From NCBI GenBank assembly GCA_030765645.1, contig JAVCCE010000003.1:1-64000 (forward strand): a stretch of 64,000 nucleotides of DNA, in the 5' to 3' direction. Below are positions 275-27,697 of this stretch, in pieces (position 1 is the stretch's first letter; each line of letters opens with the position of its first letter). The position numbers and the translations under genes are program-made. The notes below the pieces were generated by a model. The model saw nothing but the letters and a program-made list of their open reading frames with translations. It had not been told where the DNA came from and did no database searches. This stretch comes from Candidatus Hinthialibacter antarcticus. GTDB taxonomy: Bacteria > Hinthialibacterota > Hinthialibacteria > Hinthialibacterales > Hinthialibacteraceae.

Positions 275-1060
275 TTAGATTTGCGAACAAGCCATTGGTT
301 TTAAGTTAATATTGGTGATGTTGCTGAGGATTTTATTGTCGGCGTATTTTTCGATGCTTTTCAGTTTTTTCCAGCCTTCGCTGCCGCCGAATGTTTTCCA
401 ATTGGCTTTTTGTTCTTCTTCGTCCTTGAAGGTCAGCATGTAAGTCAGGTTGGGGATTTTGCCGCCGATCAGCGCTTCGCCGAAGAAAACCGGGTGCAAT
501 CCGGTTTCACGGAAAACGTCGATCTCGCCAATGTTAAACATTTCGATTTTAGTTTGTCCTGTTTTGACGCTGGGGCTTTCATAGATGCGTAATTGAAAGA
601 CGCGATCTTCATCGGCGGAGATTGGCGTCTCAAGCGTTGGCATGCCATCGAAAGCGGCGAAGAAGCTGCTTTCTACCCGCGTATAAGCCGGGTCGGTTGC
701 GGGAGCATTCAAAAACGCATCGCCTTTTTTAAGGAACGCGTCATCGGCGAGTAATTTCTGATTGACCGTCGTCGCTGCTTCGAGGGATTTATGGCGCAGG
801 AAGACGTAAACCGGGCCGATACCTTCACGCAGTTCAAATGCGCCAACGGGTTTGACGCCCTGGCGGTTCAATGCAGGGATCATGGCGTCTTTGAGAAACG
901 CGGCAAGCCCGGCTTTTTGTTCTTCTGTTTCCAGTTGATATTCTCGCAGTTCAAAATAGTCGCGACCGCTGGCTGCTGCGGCTGTTTTTCCCGTCGAAAT
1001 CGCTGCGATTGACGCGGCGCCGATGGCGCTGGACTGTTTGAGAAAAGATCGTCGTTCCAT
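275..1060 (-). CDS. NIPSNAP family protein with Tat signal
   Basis: A 261-residue exported protein. It begins MERRSFLKQ with a twin-arginine motif, then an Ala/Gly-rich hydrophobic stretch ending near residue 30. The rest looks like two tandem NIPSNAP (ferredoxin-like alpha/beta dimeric barrel) units, the first starting YFELREYQL and the second FQLRIYESPS. The start is set at 1060 because AGGA lies at a suitable distance upstream; an in-frame ATG 15 codons earlier would bury the Tat signal. Such Tat-exported NIPSNAP proteins are frequent in Planctomycetes-like genomes and their biochemical role is not known. It is a single gene followed by a strong terminator. Family call fairly sure, function open. 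Confidence 0.82.
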   Translation of the reverse strand: MERRSFLKQSSAIGAASIAAISTGKTAAAASGRDYFELREYQLETEEQKAGLAAFLKDAMIPALNRQGVKPVGAFELREGIGPVYVFLRHKSLEAATTVNQKLLADDAFLKKGDAFLNAPATDPAYTRVESSFFAAFDGMPTLETPISADEDRVFQLRIYESPSVKTGQTKIEMFNIGEIDVFRETGLHPVFFGEALIGGKIPNLTYMLTFKDEEEQKANWKTFGGSEGWKKLKSIEKYADNKILSNITNINLKPMACSQI

Positions 1061-1160
1061 GAGGTTCCCATCCTTTATATATGATGATAGGAAATCATAA
1101 AGCATTTATGCGGCTTTGGGAATTGCTGATGACGGATGGAGGAAGCAGGGAATGGAAAAC

Positions 1161-1199
1161 AAAAAAACGGGATTGACGTAACGCCAACCCCGTTTTTTT
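1161..1199. terminator. Rho-independent terminator
   Basis: AAAAAAACGGG at the left and CCCCGTTTTTTT at the right can pair around a short interior loop, with T runs on both strands. It follows the minus-strand zinc-ribbon gene (stop at 1223) and sits upstream of the NIPSNAP gene. Confidence 0.75.
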
Positions 1200-1222
1200 G
1201 CCGACTCTGGAAAATACGGTAG

Positions 1223-1492
1223 TTACTGCATCCGCGGCATCCGCGCGAACCATGACAGCATGGTTTCCGCCGACGCCATAATCTTTGAATCCCGTTGAAA
1301 CGAAAATGCTTCTGCGTTTTCAGAATTCGCTGAATTTTGATGGGCCGGTTCAAAGGCCGCCGCTAACAAGGCGTCGACTTCTTCTTCCGGCATTTCACCA
1401 TACGCGCGATGATCGTAGCGCAAAAAACAGCTGGGGCAGATTACGGATGAGGACGGAGAGCCGCAATGCTTGCACTCGCAGGTCTTGGACAT
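1223..1492 (-). CDS. Small zinc-ribbon protein, function unknown
   Basis: An 89-residue protein starting MSKTCECKHCG. The cysteines CxxxCxxC ... CPSC (residues about 5-27) form a plausible zinc ribbon. The remainder is polar or acidic, with an EEEVDALLAAAF helix and no membrane segment. The start at 1492 is chosen because GAGGTG lies about 9 bases upstream; the longer reading frame to 1579 has no such site and adds a low-complexity basic leader. The terminator right after it supports a real gene. No family was recognised; it could be a regulator or metal-binding accessory protein. Neighbours give no hint. Confidence 0.6.
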   Translation of the reverse strand: MSKTCECKHCGSPSSSVICPSCFLRYDHRAYGEMPEEEVDALLAAAFEPAHQNSANSENAEAFSFQRDSKIMASAETMLSWFARMPRMQ

Positions 1493-1804
1493 GATCGAGC
1501 ACCTCAATTGCCATAAATATCGCCTCAACCGAAACCCTGCAAATAAAGGAGAGAATAACCGCGTCCACACATGATTCATGGCTGGCTACACCTGCTTTTA
1601 TACAAAAATAATTATGACTGCCTAATCGTTATCGGAGTTGCAGTCAAAACCTTAACCAAATTCTATTATTTATTCGGTATGAGTCGTTTGTATTTGAAAT
1701 CCATTGGGGCCGTCTTGCGTCCACATGCACGTCATGCCCGGCCAAAGTTGCGGATTTTTTGGGCGGCGGCGGTGAGCGCTGCGCTTTGTTTGGGTTGATC
1801 GGGT
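1493..1804. other. Intergenic stretch without a supported gene
   Basis: About 310 bases between two minus-strand genes. A 75-codon plus-strand frame (1571-1798) has no ribosome site and an unconvincing composition. No hairpin terminator or clear promoter was found here. Confidence 0.5.
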
Positions 1805-4800
1805 TTATTCCGTTTCTCGTTCTGTATCCGGTCTGTATGGTTCAATGACGATGATGGCGACGTCTTTTGGATGAAGGCTGCCGGAAATGTCTACGCCGTC
1901 TTCGGTTTGGGCGGCGCTGAAATCATCCATCCCCCATTCGCACAAAGCCTTGGCTTTGGGGGCGGCGAAGGAGAACAAGCGTCCTGAGGCGGTGTCAGCG
2001 GTATTGTTGAAAAGCGTAATCACATGTTTTTCATGGGTCGAAAAGCGGTTGGCGTACACGCCGGGGCGCAGTGTGGGCAATAACGGTTCGACATTCTGAG
2101 ATGAAAACGCATCCTGATGTTTGCGGATGATGGGATAAACATCTTGTACAAACTGGCGGAACTCAGGGCTGTACCAGCTGCGCGGGCGGCCTTTGAGCCA
2201 CATCCCTACGCCTTGGAAGACGCAGAGTTTCGCCCGTTCCGGGTTCAATAAATGGGCGTGGATACTGGGATGGATTTTCTCGATGACGCGCATCTGAGGT
2301 TGCGAAAAACGTAAAGTGTTGATTGGGATTTGGGTCGGGTAAGCGCCGCCCGCCAGCGCATACGACAAGGCGCCGTCAAGATGAAGCGTTGAAATGTCCG
2401 ACGGTGCGCGTTCGGCGTATAGGGCGCGGTCAGATGTTTTGTTTAACTCGTTGTAGGTTTCCTGCAGCAAGGCGTTTTCACCGGGCAGGGTTTCTAGCGG
2501 GCCAAGCCCGATGCGGTCAAAGTACAACGCATTGCCATGAAGCGTTTGTATCCGTCTTGCGTAGGCATGGGCGGCAAACTGGCGCCATGGTCCAAAATTC
2601 GGGTTCATTTGTTTTTCGGATGCGTACTTTAACGTAGCATCATCATTCTTGTACCCTAGGAGTAAATAAGCTGAAGACTCAAATCCCGTAAGCGGCGCGA
2701 ACGGATCGGCGACCAGTGAGACATGGACGCTTTGTGATTTCATTTCTTCCATATTGCGGCGTAAGTTGATCTCGCTGCCAAGTGAGAGTTTATTGGGATC
2801 GCCTGTGATCGGGGATTGTAGGTAGGAGGTCGAGTTGAGTTTCTGTTGCATCCACCCCGCCAGTTCGATCATGTCGACGCCGCCAAATTCGCGCTTGAGT
2901 TCCTCTAACAGCGGCGCAAAGTGATACGCGTTCATCGCTGGAGAAAAAGTCAATCCCGAACCGCGATAGGGATAGTCGCGCCAACATAAAAACACATTGC
3001 CAATCGGGTTGCTTCGCGTTGTTATGGGTTTCAAAGAAACAAGCCAGTCGCGATGAGCGGCGAGCGGCGTTCTCCAGTCGCCTCCGTGAATTTGCACGCG
3101 CGTCGGCGATGATTCAAACCATTCGCCGCCTTGTATGAGCAATGGCTTTTCAAACCCATCGTTCGGTTGCTCCAAGCCGTATTCAACGCCCATGCGCGAG
3201 CCGGATTTTTCTTTCAACAGTCGAAATTGTTTTGGAACCAACATCTGATCGCGAGTTTGAATGGACAGCCCGCATTGATAGTCGTCGGAATATAAATCCA
3301 TCCACTGCTGAGGCATCTGGCCTGAATGCGGCGCGCTGATTCGCGTCTCGCCGCGCGCCCATGTAATGCGCTCGGTCGGGAGGAAGTGAATGTCCTTGCT
3401 CGCGTCGTTGTGGATGCTGAGCGATTGCAGGGCGGGAAACAAAACCCGCAACGGAACGGGCGCGCCGCCGATGTTTTCGATGCGCAATCGCATCTCACAA
3501 GCATCGCTCGCCGTCGGCGCAAAAAATAATTTTGCCGCCAAGGGTAAGGCCGGGTCGATATTGTTCAGCGTTAGCGATACGGTGGCGCCGTCAAGTTCAT
3601 AATTCGCGAGCCGCCAACTGTCGTCAGGAACGCGAAGCCCGTTCGAGATGACGGAGAACAAGGGCGAAGAGTTTTGTAAAAACTCGCGATTGTTGGGGAC
3701 GTATTTGAGCGATGAAATCGAAAAGGCGTCCTGGGTTTCAAATGTGATTTGATAATGCTGATTGGCGATGGTCAACTGTTTTTGTGGAGTCATCGAAACT
3801 TGCGGGGCGCTCGCTTCGGTCGTAGACGCGATGGGCAGCGTTTGGATGATGTCCGGCTTTTGGATGTAGGCCATGCTCGACTCGCCGGGGTTCAGCGTCG
3901 CTGCTGCAAGATAAATTTGTCCAAACGGCATGGCGTCGCGAAGGACGATTTTTTGCAGCGTTTTGTCTGGATTAACGGGGACATGATAAATCGACCACAA
4001 ATCATTCGCAATTTCATGTTTGAACGTCGATAACGAATACGGCATTGAGCGTTCAATGGCGCCGTCGGCGTATCGTTTTTCAATGACCAGCCAATCGGGC
4101 GAGCGGATGGCGTCGCGCGGTGAGAATCCCTCATGTAATTCTTTGCCAATCAAATGTGCGCTCATCAACAAAAACAAATCGCTGCCGCTGGCGTTCACTT
4201 CGATGGGAGCGTCTTCGCTGAGCGCCAGGCTGGTTGCTGCGACGCGTCGGTCGGGCGCGAGTTCGAATAACTTGCCTGAGATGGAATAGCCGCGCAGCTG
4301 CAGCGGCGCGTCTGTCGCCGAGGGGGTAATATCACCCAATTTGTAAGGCGATGGCGGCAGCGCGAGATAGTTCCACCCCGGCGGAGGCGTGGTTTCATCG
4401 GGCGCCTGGAAGGTGAATTCTTTTAATAGCGGCTCATCGCCGATGGTTGGGTTTGTAATGTCAAGTTGATGCAAAGTAAACGTGAGCGGTGAACTTCCGC
4501 TCTTAATCGTAATATGAATCTGGTCGACGGGCAGATGTTGGTAGTATTTGAGTATTTGTTGTTGACCGATTGATTCACCGGTTTTGGAGCCTGGCTGAAA
4601 CGATATAACCGATGGGGCGGCAGCCGCTATCATTGGAGCATTTTGGTTCGGAAGAAGCCGCACATCCACTGAACAATTCGCGTCCTGAGAGTCGACGCGA
4701 TACTGCGTGTTTGCGACCGGGAACCAATCGGGCCAGATGGGCGTGGTGGTGAGAAGCCAGCTGCTTTTCTGGTTGGGCGGGACGCGAAAAACGAAAGCCC

Positions 4801-6361: not shown

Positions 6362-7708
6362 TTATAACTCTCTTACCACGCGCAATCCAAGAATGAAACT
6401 GCGAATCGTGGGCGCGGGCGACTCGCGCTGGGCGGAACGGCAAAAATCTGCGTTGCTTGCCCAACCGCCGCCGCGCACTACGCGGCCTGACCCGCTGGCG
6501 GGACCGGTTGGGTCAGCTTGCGGCCCGGCGGGATAATCGCCGTACCAGTCGCTGCACCATTCCCATACATTGCCGCTCATGTCATAGAGGCCGAACGCGT
6601 TGGCGGATTTCAGGCCGACTTCGTGGGTCGCGTTGCTCGCGTTTACAATTTGCCAAGCATTGTCGTCAATCGCAGTTTGGGTTGGGTCGTCGCCCCACGA
6701 ATAGCGGGTGGACGTTTCCGCGCGGCTGGCGTATTCCCACTCGGCTTCGGTGGGGAGGCGGAAGCGGCCAATGCCCAAAGCGTTTAGTTCATCAATGAAC
6801 GCCTGAGCGTCATTCCATGAGATCGACTCAACCGGATGGTTGGGGTTGCCGTTGAAATTCGACGGATTATAGCCCATCACCGCTTGCCATTGCGCCTGAG
6901 TAACTTCGTACTTACTCATAAAAAATGGTTTTGAAATCGTAACGGCGCGTTGCGGGCTTTCGTCGTCGTCGCGGCCTGATTCGTCATCGGGGCTTCCCAT
7001 CAAAAACGTACCAGACGAGATGAAGTTCAGTTCCAGCGGCTTTTCACCAGTGGTGATGTTGAGCGGCACAACAATCGGGGGGATGGCTGAAATCGCGATT
7101 GGGCTTGGGTCGTTCTCATCGCTATCGAGGAATTGGGCGTTATAGAATTTTTCTGGATCAAGCAGGATGACTTCAAAATTATCAATATACGCATTGACGG
7201 CAGCGCTTGCACTGCGGTTCACGACCTGAATGATGGCTTGGAAGCCAAGTCCCGGCGGGATAAAGAACGTGGTCAGGCGACGGTATTGTCCGACAAAGTA
7301 ACTGGTGTTGTTGGGTGCGTTGGTCGAAAGAAACCGCGCATCGTCAAGGCCAAGCGAGGCGAGTGTGATTTCCGCGCCGGGCGCATCCGTACGCACGCTG
7401 CACCGCACGATGGCGGCGTTGGTGGTGTTGATAGGCTGGGTCAGCAGCATGACGCCCTCGCCGGGGTCAGCGGTCACGATGGCGCCGCGTCCGTCGGTGG
7501 CTTTATCGAAGGCGTTGTCGGTCGGGACGGGGCCATACGAAACGTCCGCCAGGTTGATGGCGGCGAAACCCGCGCCCTGGATGATGACGCTGTTTTCTTC
7601 GTTTGTATCGCCGTTAAATTCATGGACAATGGCCTGAGACTGGACCGGGGCCGTAAGAACCATCCCAGCTAATAATAAGAACCCAAGACGAAACATCGAA
7701 CGACGCAT
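6362..7708 (-). CDS. Secreted formylglycine-enzyme-like (SUMF1) domain protein, short paralogue
   Basis: 448 residues: signal peptide (MFRLGFLLLAGMVLTAPV), an N-terminal beta-sandwich-like domain (about 28-185) and a C-terminal FGE-sulfatase/SUMF1 domain (about 225-448) with GTFLMGSPDDE, FFMSKYEVTQAQW, RFRLPTEAEWEYASRA and MSGNVWEWCSDWYGDY. The N-terminal domain (GAGFAAINLADVSYG.., TDGRG.., ADPGEGVM) is plainly homologous to that of the large protein at 23599-26979. True formylglycine-generating enzymes use two nearby cysteines near the end; here GGGWASNADFC keeps only the second, so sulfatase activation is unlikely and binding is more probable. Start has GGAGG upstream. larA follows 31 bases later, probably in the same transcript. 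Confidence 0.85.
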   Translation of the reverse strand: MRRSMFRLGFLLLAGMVLTAPVQSQAIVHEFNGDTNEENSVIIQGAGFAAINLADVSYGPVPTDNAFDKATDGRGAIVTADPGEGVMLLTQPINTTNAAIVRCSVRTDAPGAEITLASLGLDDARFLSTNAPNNTSYFVGQYRRLTTFFIPPGLGFQAIIQVVNRSASAAVNAYIDNFEVILLDPEKFYNAQFLDSDENDPSPIAISAIPPIVVPLNITTGEKPLELNFISSGTFLMGSPDDESGRDDDESPQRAVTISKPFFMSKYEVTQAQWQAVMGYNPSNFNGNPNHPVESISWNDAQAFIDELNALGIGRFRLPTEAEWEYASRAETSTRYSWGDDPTQTAIDDNAWQIVNASNATHEVGLKSANAFGLYDMSGNVWEWCSDWYGDYPAGPQADPTGPASGSGRVVRGGGWASNADFCRSAQRESPAPTIRSFILGLRVVREL

Positions 7709-7740
7709 GGATATAATCCTCCAACTATTTTTCTAACATT

Positions 7741-20573: not shown

Positions 20574-22289
20574 TTAGTAGAGTTGCCAGAATTTCGCGCC
20601 GGATTGGAACATGGAGGTCAGTTCCGCCGCGCGTTCTGGCGAATAACTTAATGCGGTGAAATCCAACACGCTTTGGTTGCTGTGGCAGTTTTCACATTTT
20701 AACGCGCCTTTTTTCTTGATGGCGTGGTTGAGGCTGATAAATGAACCGGTGATGTTGAGCGGGTTATTGTCTCCAACATAGGTCGGATCATTTTGGTTAT
20801 CGGGTAGATTGAGTCCAGCCCACTCGCCGCTCCACATTTGCGAACCCATCTGGATCAATTCGTCGGTGGTCATCATGGCCGGGTTTTGGCCTGACATCAT
20901 CGCGGCGGTTTTGGCCATGCCGATGCTGATTGATTCGCTGATATTGCCGGTCATCAGATAGTGTTCTTTTTCAAAAGCGAACATGTTGGGGAACTGGCCC
21001 AGCATGGCTTTTTCTTGTTCGTTGAGGCCTTCGGGGCGCATGAAGCCAAAGGCTTTCATGGCGTCTTGCATGCCTTCGAGTCCGGCTTTCATGGTAAAGT
21101 TTTCGTTGAAGCCCGGCAGCCCGGGGATGCCGTTCATGTCGGCGATCATGCCGCTTTGGATGGCGCGGAACGGATAAATTTTCGCGTTGGGCGTGTCTTT
21201 AGTCGCAGGCATGAAATCCCAGGCGGCGGCGTCGTTAACAGGTTCCGCCAACATGCTGGCTTGACCGTTAAACCAGCGATAGGCCGGGCGTTGGTTATAG
21301 GCTTCGCTGTATTCAGAATAGGGTTCGTAGGTCCCGGTTTCTTCATCAAATTGTGGGATGTTCGCCAGCGGGCCGTCTTGCATACCGAAGATCGACGCCC
21401 ATGCGCGAATCGAGGCGCCAGACGTATAAGGAATGTGGCAGGTTTCGCAAGCGATGAATTGCGCGTGTTGATTATAAGCCGCGCTTTCATGTGGGTCGGT
21501 ATGGCAATTGCTGCAATCGACTTCGACTTCGGGGCGTTCCCAGGCGTGCATGTCGGATACGCGGGAACCGCGCGCAATCTTATGATCCTTTACCAAGTGG
21601 CAAGCCGTGCAGTTCATCCCTGCGGCGGCGTGGACGTCGTGTTCGGGTTCGTATGGCGTACCGCGTTTGTATTCCGCATCGGCTTGACCGTGTTTGTGGC
21701 AGCGATAGCAGGAATGCGCGGTGACGTCTTCACCGACGCTGCGCGCCGCTTCGAGGCTATGGTCTTGGCTCCACACGCGTCCGCCGAATTCATCGGTGGT
21801 GAGTTGGCGCCAGCCTGCGGGTTCAAATTCTTCATAGACGCCGTCGCCGTTCATGTCGTATTTTTCCGCATGGCATACGAGACAGTCGATGCTGTTTTTT
21901 TGCACGTCAGAAAACTCGCCGGTTTGCGGGTCAGGGAAGGGCAGATATTGGCTAACGTGGCATTTTCCGCAAGACGTAGAAATCTTATGGTCGCCAAAAT
22001 CGCCGGTAAAATTCACCATGCCGTTGCTGCCGACCAGGGCGCAGAAGCGGTCGATCATGCCGTGAGAGCCGCCGCCGGGGTAGCCGATGTTTGCGTTTTC
22101 CGTCCGCCAGGTAAAGTGAGTGCTCGCCATGACTTCTTCAAGTTTGCCATCGTGGCACTGCAAGCAGGTTTGCGGGCCTTCATAACTTTGCAGGAAAGAG
22201 TGATTGGCGGCAAACGATGCATTTGAGAAAAATACAATGGCTAAAATCAATGTAAGATAAGGCAAGTGGTGATAGAGCCGATGATTCAT
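20574..22289 (-). CDS. Octaheme c-type cytochrome, tetrathionate-reductase-like
   Basis: 571 residues, periplasmic: signal peptide to about residue 27 and eight CxxCH haem-binding motifs (residues 42, 107, 136, 194, 227, 259, 281 and one near 535). The N-terminal pattern CLQCHDGKLEEVMASTHFTW, the spacing of the next motifs and CETCHIPYTS resemble the octaheme tetrathionate reductase family, whose members reduce tetrathionate, nitrite or hydroxylamine in vitro. About 250 residues without haem lie between motifs seven and eight, longer than I expect for that family. Start has AAGGAG upstream. No quinol oxidase or cytochrome-maturation gene is nearby, so the electron donor is unknown. Confidence 0.85.
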   Translation of the reverse strand: MNHRLYHHLPYLTLILAIVFFSNASFAANHSFLQSYEGPQTCLQCHDGKLEEVMASTHFTWRTENANIGYPGGGSHGMIDRFCALVGSNGMVNFTGDFGDHKISTSCGKCHVSQYLPFPDPQTGEFSDVQKNSIDCLVCHAEKYDMNGDGVYEEFEPAGWRQLTTDEFGGRVWSQDHSLEAARSVGEDVTAHSCYRCHKHGQADAEYKRGTPYEPEHDVHAAAGMNCTACHLVKDHKIARGSRVSDMHAWERPEVEVDCSNCHTDPHESAAYNQHAQFIACETCHIPYTSGASIRAWASIFGMQDGPLANIPQFDEETGTYEPYSEYSEAYNQRPAYRWFNGQASMLAEPVNDAAAWDFMPATKDTPNAKIYPFRAIQSGMIADMNGIPGLPGFNENFTMKAGLEGMQDAMKAFGFMRPEGLNEQEKAMLGQFPNMFAFEKEHYLMTGNISESISIGMAKTAAMMSGQNPAMMTTDELIQMGSQMWSGEWAGLNLPDNQNDPTYVGDNNPLNITGSFISLNHAIKKKGALKCENCHSNQSVLDFTALSYSPERAAELTSMFQSGAKFWQLY

Positions 22290-22768: not shown

Positions 22769-23620
22769 ATGGCAGGTTCGCTTTCGCTTTTTAGTCCACT
22801 GGTGCAAACCTGGTTCGCCGAGCAATTGGGCGAGCCGACCGAGGTGCAAGAACGCGGCTGGCCGGGTATCGTAAGCGGGCGGCATGTAATCGCGACGGCG
22901 CCGACGGGCAGCGGCAAGACGCTGGCGGCGTTTTTGTGGGCGATCGACCAACTGTTGACGGGCGCTTGGCCTTGCGGCGAATTACAGGTGATCTACATTT
23001 CGCCGCTCAAAGCGCTCAACAATGATATACAGCGAAACTTGCTTTCTCCATTACAAGAACTGCGCGCGCGGATGACGGCTGCGGGCATGGAACCGCCCGA
23101 TGTGCGCGTCGCAGTGCGCAGCGGCGATACCGACCAAAGCGAACGCGCCCGCATGTTGCGGCGCCCGCCGGAAATTTTGATTACCACGCCCGAAAGCCTC
23201 AACCTACTCGTTAATTCAAAACGTGGACGCGCGGTGTTTGGTTCCGTACGGACGCTGATCTTGGATGAAGTGCACTCCGTCGCGGCCACCAAACGCGGCG
23301 CCCATCTCATTACGGCGGTTGACCGATTGGTGATGCTCAGCGGCGAGTTTCAACGCTTGGCGCTGAGCGCAACCATTAATCCTCTCGAAGTGGTGGCGGA
23401 ATGGGTGGCGGGGCGTCGGCTCGAAACGCGAAACGGACAGTCGGTATTTGTTCCAAGAGACATTGATATTGTTGAATGCAGTTCGATCAAAAAACTCGAT
23501 GTCTGCGTTCGTTACCCTGCGGTTGGAGAGAAAGCCGCAAATGATAAAAATGTCTGGTTGCCTTACGCCAAAGCCATCCGCGAGGTTGTTCGGCAACATC
23601 ATGAGATTTCGATTGCGTAA
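22769..23620 (+). pseudogene. lhr: lhr-type helicase, N-terminal fragment
   Basis: 283 codons matching the start of Lhr, a large superfamily 2 DNA helicase of about 1400-1500 residues. Present: FSPLVQTWFAEQLGEPTEVQ, motif I ATAPTGSGKTLAAFLWAIDQL, Ia YISPLKALNNDI, ITTPESLNLL, motif II LDEVHSVAATKRGAHL and motif III LALSATINP. Homology stops at about 23605 (VVRQHH) where Lhr should continue into motif IV; then a few unrelated codons and a stop follow. The end overlaps the stop of the opposite-strand mosaic gene. The C-terminal piece of lhr survives at 27077-27697. With RecA domain 2, the winged helix and the core domain missing, it cannot work as a helicase. Confidence 0.88.
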
Positions 23621-26600
23621 TCGGTAGCGCCATATAAAGGACCGCCGCCGCTCACTTTGATGTAGTATATCGTTCCAGCCATTAATGTTCTTGTAATTCT
23701 AGATAAGCGCCCGTCGCCTCCATCATCATTCATCTCCAATGAAATGGATTCGGGATCTGTATATATGTCCAGGACTGTATCAGTGTATGTTGGATTTTTC
23801 CCGCCTACTGCAAAAGTTTCAATAGTATAGGATTTCGTTGAGGTGGGTACGAATCTGTACCAAACAAATGACGTCCAAGTAGGTAAACTCCCTGTAACTC
23901 TTTGTCCTTCTAAAAGTTGAGTGGATGTCATGCTCGGCGTAGCCGTTGGAGTGACTGTTGGCGTCGGCGTAATGGTCGGTACCGGCGTCGGAGTAATGGT
24001 CGGTACCGGCGTCGGAGTAATGGTCGGCGTAGCCGTTGGCGACCTAAGAAGGCGAAAGCCAAAGCGGTTGCCGCGGTAGTCAGGCGAGCCCTGGCCGCGA
24101 AGCGCCGACCGGCAGCTCCGAGCGCCGCCGTCCCAGCCGCCGCCGCGTATGACACGGCCCGAACCCGATGATGGCCCTAATGGCCCTACAGGATCAATTT
24201 GAGCACTAGATGAATAACTTCCATACCAATCCTGGCACCACTCCCACACATTTCCGCTCATGTCAAACAGCTCCCATGGATTTGGCAACTTGGTTCCTAC
24301 CTCGTGTGTTCTAGAGGAAGAATTTGAATCATACCAAGCATACTGATTGATTTGAGAATTATTTGGATCATCACCCCAATAAAAACGTGTGGTCGTCCCC
24401 GCACGACACGCATACTCCCACTCCGCTTCCGTCGGAAGCCGAAATGTACCCTGATTCATGCCATTCAACTTCTCTATAAACTGTTGGCAATCATTCCATG
24501 AAACTGATTCCACCGGATTATTCATTCCACTGAAACTAGATGGATTGGAACCCATTACCGCCGACCATTGCGCTTGCGTCACTTCATACTTCCCCATATA
24601 AAAACCGTTCGTCAAAGTCACCTGGTGCTGCGGACCTTCATCTGAATATCTACCACTCTCATTACTTGGAGACCCCATGGTAAATGCGCCCGCAGGAATT
24701 AATTCCATTTTTAATGGCATCGCCCCATCTGGTAAATTCAAATCTATCGTTATTTGACCTGGCCGCGGCGTCGGCGTCGGCGTAACGGTCGGTACCGGCG
24801 TCGGAGTAATGGTCGGTACCGGCGTCGGAGTTCTTGTCGGAACGGGTGTGTATGTAGGAGGATAAATATGAGTTGGTGTGGGTAAATCAGTTAAAAGCAA
24901 TTCAATGCTTTCTGATATACCAAGAAACCTAGCTTCAAACGTTGTTTTTTCTATTCTAAAAACACTAAATAGGTAAATCGTACCACTTTGAGGGCCATTT
25001 TCAAATATTACGTTTACACTTTCAGCATTTGGAGACCACTCAAAATAATTACTTGTTGGTGAATTAGAATTACCCAAGAATTCAAATGTCTGTCCATTAT
25101 CTTTAGATACAGTTATGTGGTAATCGTATGCGTTTGTTGAATTAGGGTCGTTCCAATTAATCACTAATTCTCTATCAAAATATGCATCAGTGTCTACATG
25201 GGAGCCAGTGTCCACGCGATCCTGGATGTCTTGAGGATTAGAATCTGAAACATATACGACAGGAATAGGTCTCGGCGTTTCTGAAGGGATTATTGTGATT
25301 GTTGGAATTGATGTTGGTTGAGGCGTTGGCTGGTCTCCTTCACCTGGAACAAAAATTTCGCCATTAAAGTGGTAAATCTCTCCTGCTTTCCAAATCGCTA
25401 TACCAGACATCATGTCACTTGTTGATACAGCCCCCCCGGATTTCCACTGAGCAATGTATATCATCATTTCGCTGGTGGAAATTCTAAAATCTTGATTGCT
25501 ATCCATTGAATGAACTGTATAAATGTCTGTCAATTGATACTTCGTAGAAGTAATAGGATTTGCCATATTAATTGCTAAGTCGCCAATAGTGATAACCTCT
25601 TGCGGCAAAAACTCCTTGGTGAAGAAGGTAGATCCAGAAAAGTATTCTGAAATATTTCCATTGGAGATTGGAGTAATTGTATAAGTAAGGGTTTCTGGCA
25701 ATTGCGTACCAGGAAGAAATAGCCATTTGAGTTGATGATTAATTTCATCCCATTTTCCTGAATCACTTATCGTGTCAACACTCCAACCATTTGGAGGCGT
25801 CTCAATGATTGAAACTCCGCTTTCATTCATTATTGCTGCGTCTACATTGAATTTTAATTGCGTTGTAAATGGTATTCCTGCTTGATATGAATCCGGCAAT
25901 ACCCTTAGAACCTCAACTTCAACCGGCGCAATTGATTTTAGAAATCTATCACCATCTATTTTTTTTTGAATTGGATTGAAATTTAAGGTGTAAACGATCA
26001 TCCCAGTAAATACTTGAGTCCCAGCAACAGAATCTGAAGGAACGGCTACATAATCAATGGAATCTGGTAGTAAAACTCCTGGAAGAAAAAGCCATTTTAA
26101 CTGTTGATTTACTGCATCCCAACTTCCTGCATCACTGATGCTGATAACTTCCCATCCCTCAGGCACATTTTCTGTAATCGATAATCCACTATTCGAAGCA
26201 ATAGAATCAGAAACTAAGATTTCAAAAGAGACTTCCGCTTCTTGCCCATTCTCATAAAAGTTTGGCAAAACACGATTAACAGTTGCTTCGTCTGGTGAAA
26301 GTGGTGTTGGTTTCGGTGTAGGAGTAGAAATCGGTAAGTTTGTTGGTACGGGTGTAATTGTTGAAGTTGGGTTTGGTAGGAGGGGCGATTCAGTGTTGAT
26401 GATTTCATTAAGATCAATTTCAATTTTTTCATCGCCTAAATCAATAATTTGAAAATTATCTAAGTAGACCGTAACAGGTTCTGTCTCACTTGTATTGACG
26501 ACTTGAATGATCCCCTGAAAACCTATCGAAGGCGGTAAAAAGAAATCTGCAATCCGCTGGTATTGATCGACAAAGAGGTTGGAGACGTTAGGTGAAATCG

Positions 26601-26979
26601 TCGAAACTACCAAGTCTTCACCAAGATCAATTGAGACCAGATAAACAGACACATTAGGCGCCGTTGAACGGACTGAGCAGCGAAGCAATGCTATGTTCGA
26701 CGTGAAAATCGGCGCCATGTTGACCATGACGCCCTCACCAGGATCTGCTTCAATAATCATACCTCGACCATCGGTAGCGCCATCAAACGCGTTATCGGTT
26801 GGAATGGTTCCATAAGAAATGTCTGGAAGCGGATATTCACCGAACCCTGCGCCAATGACGCTGATGCCATTGGCTTCAGTCGTATCGGCTGAAAAATCGA
26901 TATTGAGAAGATTCGTTTGAGAAAAGACTGTGGAAAATGATAGAAGAGTAAAAAGGACAACAGTAACCAATCGTCTCAT
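23599..26979 (-). CDS. Large secreted mosaic protein with FGE/C-type-lectin-like domain
   Basis: 1126 residues. Order: signal peptide (1-20); N-terminal domain shared with the 6362-7708 protein (about 22-175); Pro/Thr linker; two similar beta-sandwich repeats, each with a SDxGxWDxxNxQLKWLFLPG signature (about 250-330 and 350-455); a dockerin-like segment with DSNQDFRISTSEMMIYI (about 485-540); a fibronectin-like domain (about 575-700); a PTPVPTITP linker; an FGE-sulfatase/SUMF1 domain (about 745-978); a second PTPVPTITP linker; and a PPC-like beta-sandwich (about 1015-1126). The FGE part has FYMGKYEVTQAQW and MSGNVWEWCQDW but only the second active-site Cys (GGGWDGGARSC), so enzyme activity is doubtful. 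The gene is AT-rich except residues about 930-985. It replaces the middle of lhr. Start has AAGGGA upstream. Confidence 0.87.
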   Translation of the reverse strand: MRRLVTVVLFTLLSFSTVFSQTNLLNIDFSADTTEANGISVIGAGFGEYPLPDISYGTIPTDNAFDGATDGRGMIIEADPGEGVMVNMAPIFTSNIALLRCSVRSTAPNVSVYLVSIDLGEDLVVSTISPNVSNLFVDQYQRIADFFLPPSIGFQGIIQVVNTSETEPVTVYLDNFQIIDLGDEKIEIDLNEIINTESPLLPNPTSTITPVPTNLPISTPTPKPTPLSPDEATVNRVLPNFYENGQEAEVSFEILVSDSIASNSGLSITENVPEGWEVISISDAGSWDAVNQQLKWLFLPGVLLPDSIDYVAVPSDSVAGTQVFTGMIVYTLNFNPIQKKIDGDRFLKSIAPVEVEVLRVLPDSYQAGIPFTTQLKFNVDAAIMNESGVSIIETPPNGWSVDTISDSGKWDEINHQLKWLFLPGTQLPETLTYTITPISNGNISEYFSGSTFFTKEFLPQEVITIGDLAINMANPITSTKYQLTDIYTVHSMDSNQDFRISTSEMMIYIAQWKSGGAVSTSDMMSGIAIWKAGEIYHFNGEIFVPGEGDQPTPQPTSIPTITIIPSETPRPIPVVYVSDSNPQDIQDRVDTGSHVDTDAYFDRELVINWNDPNSTNAYDYHITVSKDNGQTFEFLGNSNSPTSNYFEWSPNAESVNVIFENGPQSGTIYLFSVFRIEKTTFEARFLGISESIELLLTDLPTPTHIYPPTYTPVPTRTPTPVPTITPTPVPTVTPTPTPRPGQITIDLNLPDGAMPLKMELIPAGAFTMGSPSNESGRYSDEGPQHQVTLTNGFYMGKYEVTQAQWSAVMGSNPSSFSGMNNPVESVSWNDCQQFIEKLNGMNQGTFRLPTEAEWEYACRAGTTTRFYWGDDPNNSQINQYAWYDSNSSSRTHEVGTKLPNPWELFDMSGNVWEWCQDWYGSYSSSAQIDPVGPLGPSSGSGRVIRGGGWDGGARSCRSALRGQGSPDYRGNRFGFRLLRSPTATPTITPTPVPTITPTPVPTITPTPTVTPTATPSMTSTQLLEGQRVTGSLPTWTSFVWYRFVPTSTKSYTIETFAVGGKNPTYTDTVLDIYTDPESISLEMNDDGGDGRLSRITRTLMAGTIYYIKVSGGGPLYGATDYAIEIS
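23974..24018. repeat. 45-bp direct repeat, copy 1 (3' linker of mosaic gene)
   Basis: Nearly two units of a 24-bp sequence starting GGTCGGTACCGGCGTCGGAG, encoding the PTPVPTITP linker after the FGE domain. It is identical to 24787-24831; the start-to-start distance is 813 bases, a multiple of three. Confidence 0.93.
24045..24165 (-). other. GC-rich patch, candidate variable region of the FGE domain
   Basis: About 120 bases at the end of the FGE domain, much richer in GC than the rest of the gene. The codons at positions variable in diversity-generating-retroelement targets (after GGGW, around CRSA, after PD) are nearly all NNC: GAC, GGC, GGC, AGC, GGC, GGC, TAC, GGC, AAC, CGC. This is what adenine mutagenesis of AAC codons would leave. 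No template repeat or reverse transcriptase was found in this window, so the call is tentative. Confidence 0.4.
24787..24831. repeat. 45-bp direct repeat, copy 2 (5' linker of mosaic gene)
   Basis: Identical to 23974-24018; encodes the PTPVPTITP linker before the FGE domain. The two copies flank exactly the FGE domain in frame. Confidence 0.93.
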
Positions 26980-27076
26980 GATGATATCCCTTCGGGTGTG
27001 ATATTAACATGTTTACAATAATATTATTCCTTTGTCAATAAGAAATTTTCCCCATAAGACTCCACAAGAATAAGAA

Positions 27077-27697
27077 TTGTCATATACATATATGCAACAC
27101 GCTTTTGTTAACAAAAATTCAAATAGACATTGCTATGGAATCTTGTTCCGTGAACTGCTGTTGCGCGAGTCGCCGCCATTTCGTTGGGGTGAATTATTCA
27201 AAGCGTTGCGGGTGATGGAACTCTCCGGCGAAATCGTGGGCGGATATTTTTTTGAAGGCGTTCACGGTTTGCAATTTATGAGCGCGGCGTCGCTGCATTC
27301 TTTTCAACAGTCCCAGCCGATTGACGTGGTGTACTGGCTGAGCGCGGTCGATCCGGCGTCGTTGTGCGGCGTTAACATTGAGGGGCTGAAAGACGGCCTA
27401 CCGGAGCGCCGATTGTCAAACCACCTCGTCTATCATGGAACCCAACTCGCTTTGCTGTCGCGCCGCCAGGGCAAACAACTGACGATTCATGCCGATGCAA
27501 CCAACGAAAACCTGCCCCGTTTTTTACAAATCTTTCATCGTTGGTTAGAGCGTTCCGCCTCGCCAGTGCGGTCAATCACCATTGAGACGATCAATGAGGC
27601 GCCCGCAGCCGAAAACCCCTATCTTGAAGTATTCAAAACAGAATTTGACGCGACGGTTGATTTCGGGAAAATCGTGATTCGTAAGCGCTATTTCTAA
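27077..27697 (+). pseudogene. lhr: lhr-type helicase, C-terminal fragment
   Basis: About 190 codons matching the very end of Lhr: YGILFRELLLRESPPFRWGE, LFKALRVMELSGEIVGGYF, GLQFMSAASL, WLSAVDPASLCGVNI and LVYHGTQLALLSRRQGK all correspond to its C-terminal domain. Homology begins at about 27127; the preceding 16 codons are unrelated, and the only in-frame starts are a TTG at 27077 and a Met a few codons later, without a ribosome site. Same strand and order as the N-terminal piece 3.5 kb upstream. About 900 or more residues of the original protein are missing between the two. Unlikely to be functional. Confidence 0.85.

Follow-up and report, generated by a model that had tools for sequence, protein, structure and literature searches.

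The central two thirds of the gene for the repair helicase Lhr has been replaced in the uncultured Candidatus Hinthialibacter antarcticus by a segment of odd composition, which carries a single gene on the opposite strand (Table 1). This was observed in a window of 64,000 nucleotides, the whole stretch of DNA analyzed here. We consider it likely that an AT-rich single-gene segment, probably acquired horizontally, became fused to lhr on both sides without homology at the joins, that 3.07 kb of lhr went missing in between and that Lhr was inactivated.

Table 1. Features of the interrupted lhr locus (window coordinates)
Feature	Coordinates	Strand	Remark	Evidence
Lhr N-terminal remnant, residues 1-278	22769..23602	+	First RecA-like (DEAD) domain only	BLASTP vs Lhr of G001-G004; Pfam DEAD
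Replacement segment, ~3.53 kb in place of ~3.07 kb of lhr	23603..27133	.		Homology limits of lhr fragments; middle absent genome-wide
Predicted secreted multidomain protein, 1126 aa	23599..26979	-		ORF; PF03781 E 1e-48; paralog matches; GC3 0.37
Upstream region of the minus-strand gene, 154 bp, 30% GC, AAGGGA ribosome-binding-like site 5' of ATG	26980..27133	.		Sequence; own-genome DNA search
Lhr C-terminal remnant, last 187 residues including stop codon	27134..27697	+	Part of fourth winged-helix domain	BLASTP; PF23234

Both ends of Lhr are recognizable on the plus strand, the coding part of the second ending at 27694, and they flank DNA unrelated to Lhr, as the sequence-only reading had proposed. 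The N-terminal remnant aligns without gaps to Lhr of the same-family genomes G004, G002 and G003 (57%, 53% and 55% identity, respectively) and matches Pfam DEAD with an E-value of 4e-31. In a multiple alignment the fit is kept through the motif VVRQHH, up to H277/H278, and is lost where the relatives have STLIFTNxRR; the left limit of homology lies at about nt 23602, within a few bases. The ORF of this remnant (22769-23620, +) runs on to a stop codon at 23618-23620 in the inserted DNA, inside the 3' end of the minus-strand gene, so that the two ORFs overlap tail to tail. Directly upstream of the remnant, a multihaem cytochrome c gene is located at 20574-22289 (-). At the other side, the suspected homology to Lhr C-termini was borne out: the last 186-187 residues of the family Lhr proteins align ungapped with the C-terminal remnant at 52-56% identity, and WH4_Lhr (PF23234) matches it with an E-value of 1e-15. 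This homology begins at Tyr20 of an ORF at 27077-27697 (+), from YGILFRELL on, 7 bp from the position 27127 given earlier. The two remnants are collinear and sharply limited, with neither stop codons nor frameshifts in ~465 codons.

Functional bacterial Lhr combines two RecA-like domains, winged-helix domains and a C-terminal domain in one chain of 1400-1600 aa, an arrangement that no longer exists at this locus. An SF2 helicase with only one RecA-like domain is no working helicase. Since the N-terminal remnant holds a single such domain, and the second RecA domain, the bridge and most of the winged-helix parts are gone, Lhr function is expected to be lost and the remnants to be a non-functional pseudogene.

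The comparison set consisted of other genera of the same family (G001-G005). Lhr is unbroken in four of these genomes: three encode ~1,500 aa, and in G001 the ORF stays open as far as the contig reaches. Compared with Lhr of G004, 1,022 residues are missing (3.07 kb, L131:7115-10180), slightly more than the 900 or so first estimated, and a broader contig scan for Lhr returned distant proteins only (identity ≤53%). Within the genome itself, a 96%-complete assembly of 78 contigs, PF08494 (DEAD_assoc) had no match, and the same domain was found in six control genomes. The middle of G004 Lhr gave no match in the genome either, an empty result that is weak without a positive control; the N- and C-terminal fragments did match between this genome and the relatives, at 55-57% identity. 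The genome held no second N- or C-terminal fragment at high score, nor the second full-length lhr for which a check had been suggested. Judged by these searches of a 96%-complete genome, the middle of lhr is lost rather than moved to another place. The unbroken Lhr of the relatives, together with the absence of the middle, upholds the earlier view of a replacement as opposed to a simple insertion.

An assembly error could also join unrelated sequences, through a chimeric contig or through mixed strains in the bin, and both the 78-contig assembly and the jumps in composition at the junctions would fit such an artefact. However, the two ends of lhr stand on either side of the insert in the right order and direction, which makes this very unlikely: a chimera with one joint would not explain why the C-terminal part of lhr, equally close to the relatives and pointing the same way, lies at the far end of the insert. 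Moreover, the window contains no N and thus no scaffold gap, and the assembly contains no further lhr copy or middle fragment.

The inserted DNA consists of a single long minus-strand ORF and the region upstream of it. The description of this DNA as holding only an AT-rich minus-strand gene stands for the single ORF and for most of its length, but not for codons ~891-1022, where GC is 0.60. Its protein has a secretion-like, signal peptide-like start (MRRLVTVVLFTLLSFSTVFSQT, by direct reading), followed by an N-terminal domain (1-219), Thr-Pro linkers, repeats, a dockerin-like segment (recognized by eye), an FGE-sulfatase domain (758-979) and a PPC-like C-terminus, a layout for which the proposed name of surface protein is, as a prediction from sequence, reasonable. 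The FGE-sulfatase domain, which is C-type-lectin-like, is predicted from sequence at 166 bits against a gathering cut-off of 23.3. The C-terminus aligns with the PPC-like region of another protein, whose gene lies at a different place in the genome; the natural end of this region falls approximately at the stop codon, and the gene therefore looks complete. If the left limit of homology is indeed nt 23602, its stop codon (23599-23601) would be derived from lhr. A shorter paralog of 456 aa with host-like GC3 (0.65), located at 6365-7732 (-), has the N-terminal and FGE domains without the middle repeats. Another AT-rich FGE-domain gene is present in the same genome at 662-4650 (+) of L174 (G000:C10), in a region of ~40% GC; its GC3 is 0.26-0.28, and one in-frame TGA within the FGE domain breaks the gene.

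With a GC3 of 0.37, the inserted gene is the lowest of the 36 ORFs of at least 250 aa in the window (0.50-0.68 in the others), and it was therefore probably acquired horizontally, low GC3 being an indirect sign of transfer. Its GC is 0.38-0.45 over most of its length, and its GC3 of 0.27-0.41 rises to a host-like 0.57-0.59 in codons ~891-1022 (23914-24309, -). A second exchange within the gene may have left this stretch, and because of it the history of the insert would comprise more than one clean transfer. The term mosaic, already used for this gene, is apt, as its domains match different places and GC3 varies along it. In the same-family relatives, the number of places that match this protein family ranges from ~20 to over 60 per genome. 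For the FGE domain, the closest proteins come from other genera of the bacterial family (≤70% identity), where the genes are not AT-rich, and paralogs in its own genome reach at most 58%. At the DNA level the compared loci contain no close copy, long matches being ~71% identical at best, and a tree of the FGE domain did not resolve the donor. A phage origin was rejected: viral contigs offered only distant FGE-domain homologs (47-56%) and a PHROG without clear function.

The search for mobile machinery recovered neither of the two marks of a transposon or insertion sequence. The insert, with its single long ORF, encodes no transposase domain, and its ends share 11 of 20 positions as terminal inverted repeats, a chance level reached by 34% of shuffles. 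Strings shared by the junctions are 6 bp at most, and the direct repeats there look like chance matches; in one pair matching at 16 of 19 positions (23451/27118), the right copy adjoins the right junction, and the left copy is ~150 bp off the left one. The sequence-only reading was thus correct in seeing no transposase and no target duplication, although the missing duplication means little because 3 kb of the target are gone. No match to Ku (PF02735) was found in the genome, which speaks against Ku-dependent end joining, though not absolutely at 96% completeness. The fold usually targeted by diversity-generating retroelements is that of C-type-lectin-like FGE domains. In the genome no reverse transcriptase (RVT_1) was found, which speaks against such an element.

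FGE-domain genes might instead form a programmed or mobile cassette, that is, a single-gene unit with its own unrecognized movement or a retroelement target. The very large and mosaic family in the relatives and the fold of the domain would be in keeping with this, but the lack of RVT_1, of inverted repeats and of a second copy of the upstream end in a DNA search of the own genome, together with the divergence of the paralogs, makes the idea extremely improbable. There is similarly hardly any chance that the secreted FGE-domain genes found in these bacteria travel as bare cassettes of a single gene and take the place of chromosomal segments by an undescribed mechanism; if true, this would explain their large mosaic family. 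The simplest account is that both ends were joined without homology and the target between them was lost, an outcome of a kind already described for foreign DNA entering a cell (PMC4437187 and references therein).

The favored course of events is as follows. The segment, comprising the secreted FGE-domain gene and its own upstream region, would have entered lhr through two non-homologous joins, and the 3.07 kb between them would have been lost, destroying Lhr and leaving the two remnants. We infer a single step of double illegitimate recombination rather than an insertion followed by a deletion. A larger insertion, for example of a mobile element carrying the gene, might also have been followed by deletion of element genes and of the lhr middle in one or more later steps. 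The heterogeneous composition of the insert suits this course, lhr would have been free to lose its middle after any first hit, and element genes need not persist. Nevertheless, we regard it as unlikely, as no element genes or repeats are left over and the state of the remnants leaves little time for several steps. Their identity to same-family relatives is 52-57% (N-terminal) and 51-56% (C-terminal), compared with 54-65% and 49-62% among the intact relatives. As both reading frames are still open and their divergence does not exceed that of the intact genes, the break looks recent relative to the divergence of genera; no absolute time is implied. One step and two are not separable from the relatives, since the state of this locus before the event is seen in no sister genome and the genes beside lhr are not syntenic.

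In bacteria, Lhr is a helicase of DNA repair that has an extra region at its C-terminus, and E. coli cells lacking the protein show sensitivity to oxidative stress (PMC10953399). As an accessory DNA-repair helicase, Lhr would be dispensable, and the event was presumably selectively neutral. The fifth same-family genome, G005, shows no Lhr (its best match is another DEAD helicase, E 2e-9), so loss appears to be tolerated in the family.

Here, a repair helicase has been lost in a lineage whose relatives retain it. The locus is best read as a clear instance in which non-homologous replacement led to the loss of a gene: a sharply bounded natural case in which a probably acquired gene replaces, and does not merely interrupt, a chromosomal gene, with no visible parts of a mobile element. 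It is a known and ordinary kind of event rather than a new type of element, and by itself leaves the general picture unchanged. Homology-independent double illegitimate recombination is a described route (PMC4437187, which cites Hulter and Wackernagel, 2008); a literature search for its short-patch form returned no relevant paper.

Compared with double and homology-facilitated illegitimate recombination in Acinetobacter and others (cited in PMC4437187 and PMC3240628), the locus would be similar in that probably foreign DNA is joined at seemingly non-homologous junctions, here with loss of the recipient DNA between them. It differs in that no long homology anchor was found and the event is a single natural case reconstructed from other genera. 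With full-length bacterial Lhr of the E. coli PRK09751 type (~1,500 aa, PMC10953399), both fragments are collinear, but the first RecA-like domain and the extreme C-terminus alone remain. Finally, the inserted gene shares its domain (PF03781) with the multidomain secreted FGE-sulfatase proteins, a large paralogous family in its own genome and the relatives, from which this copy differs in being unusually AT-rich and set in a broken gene.
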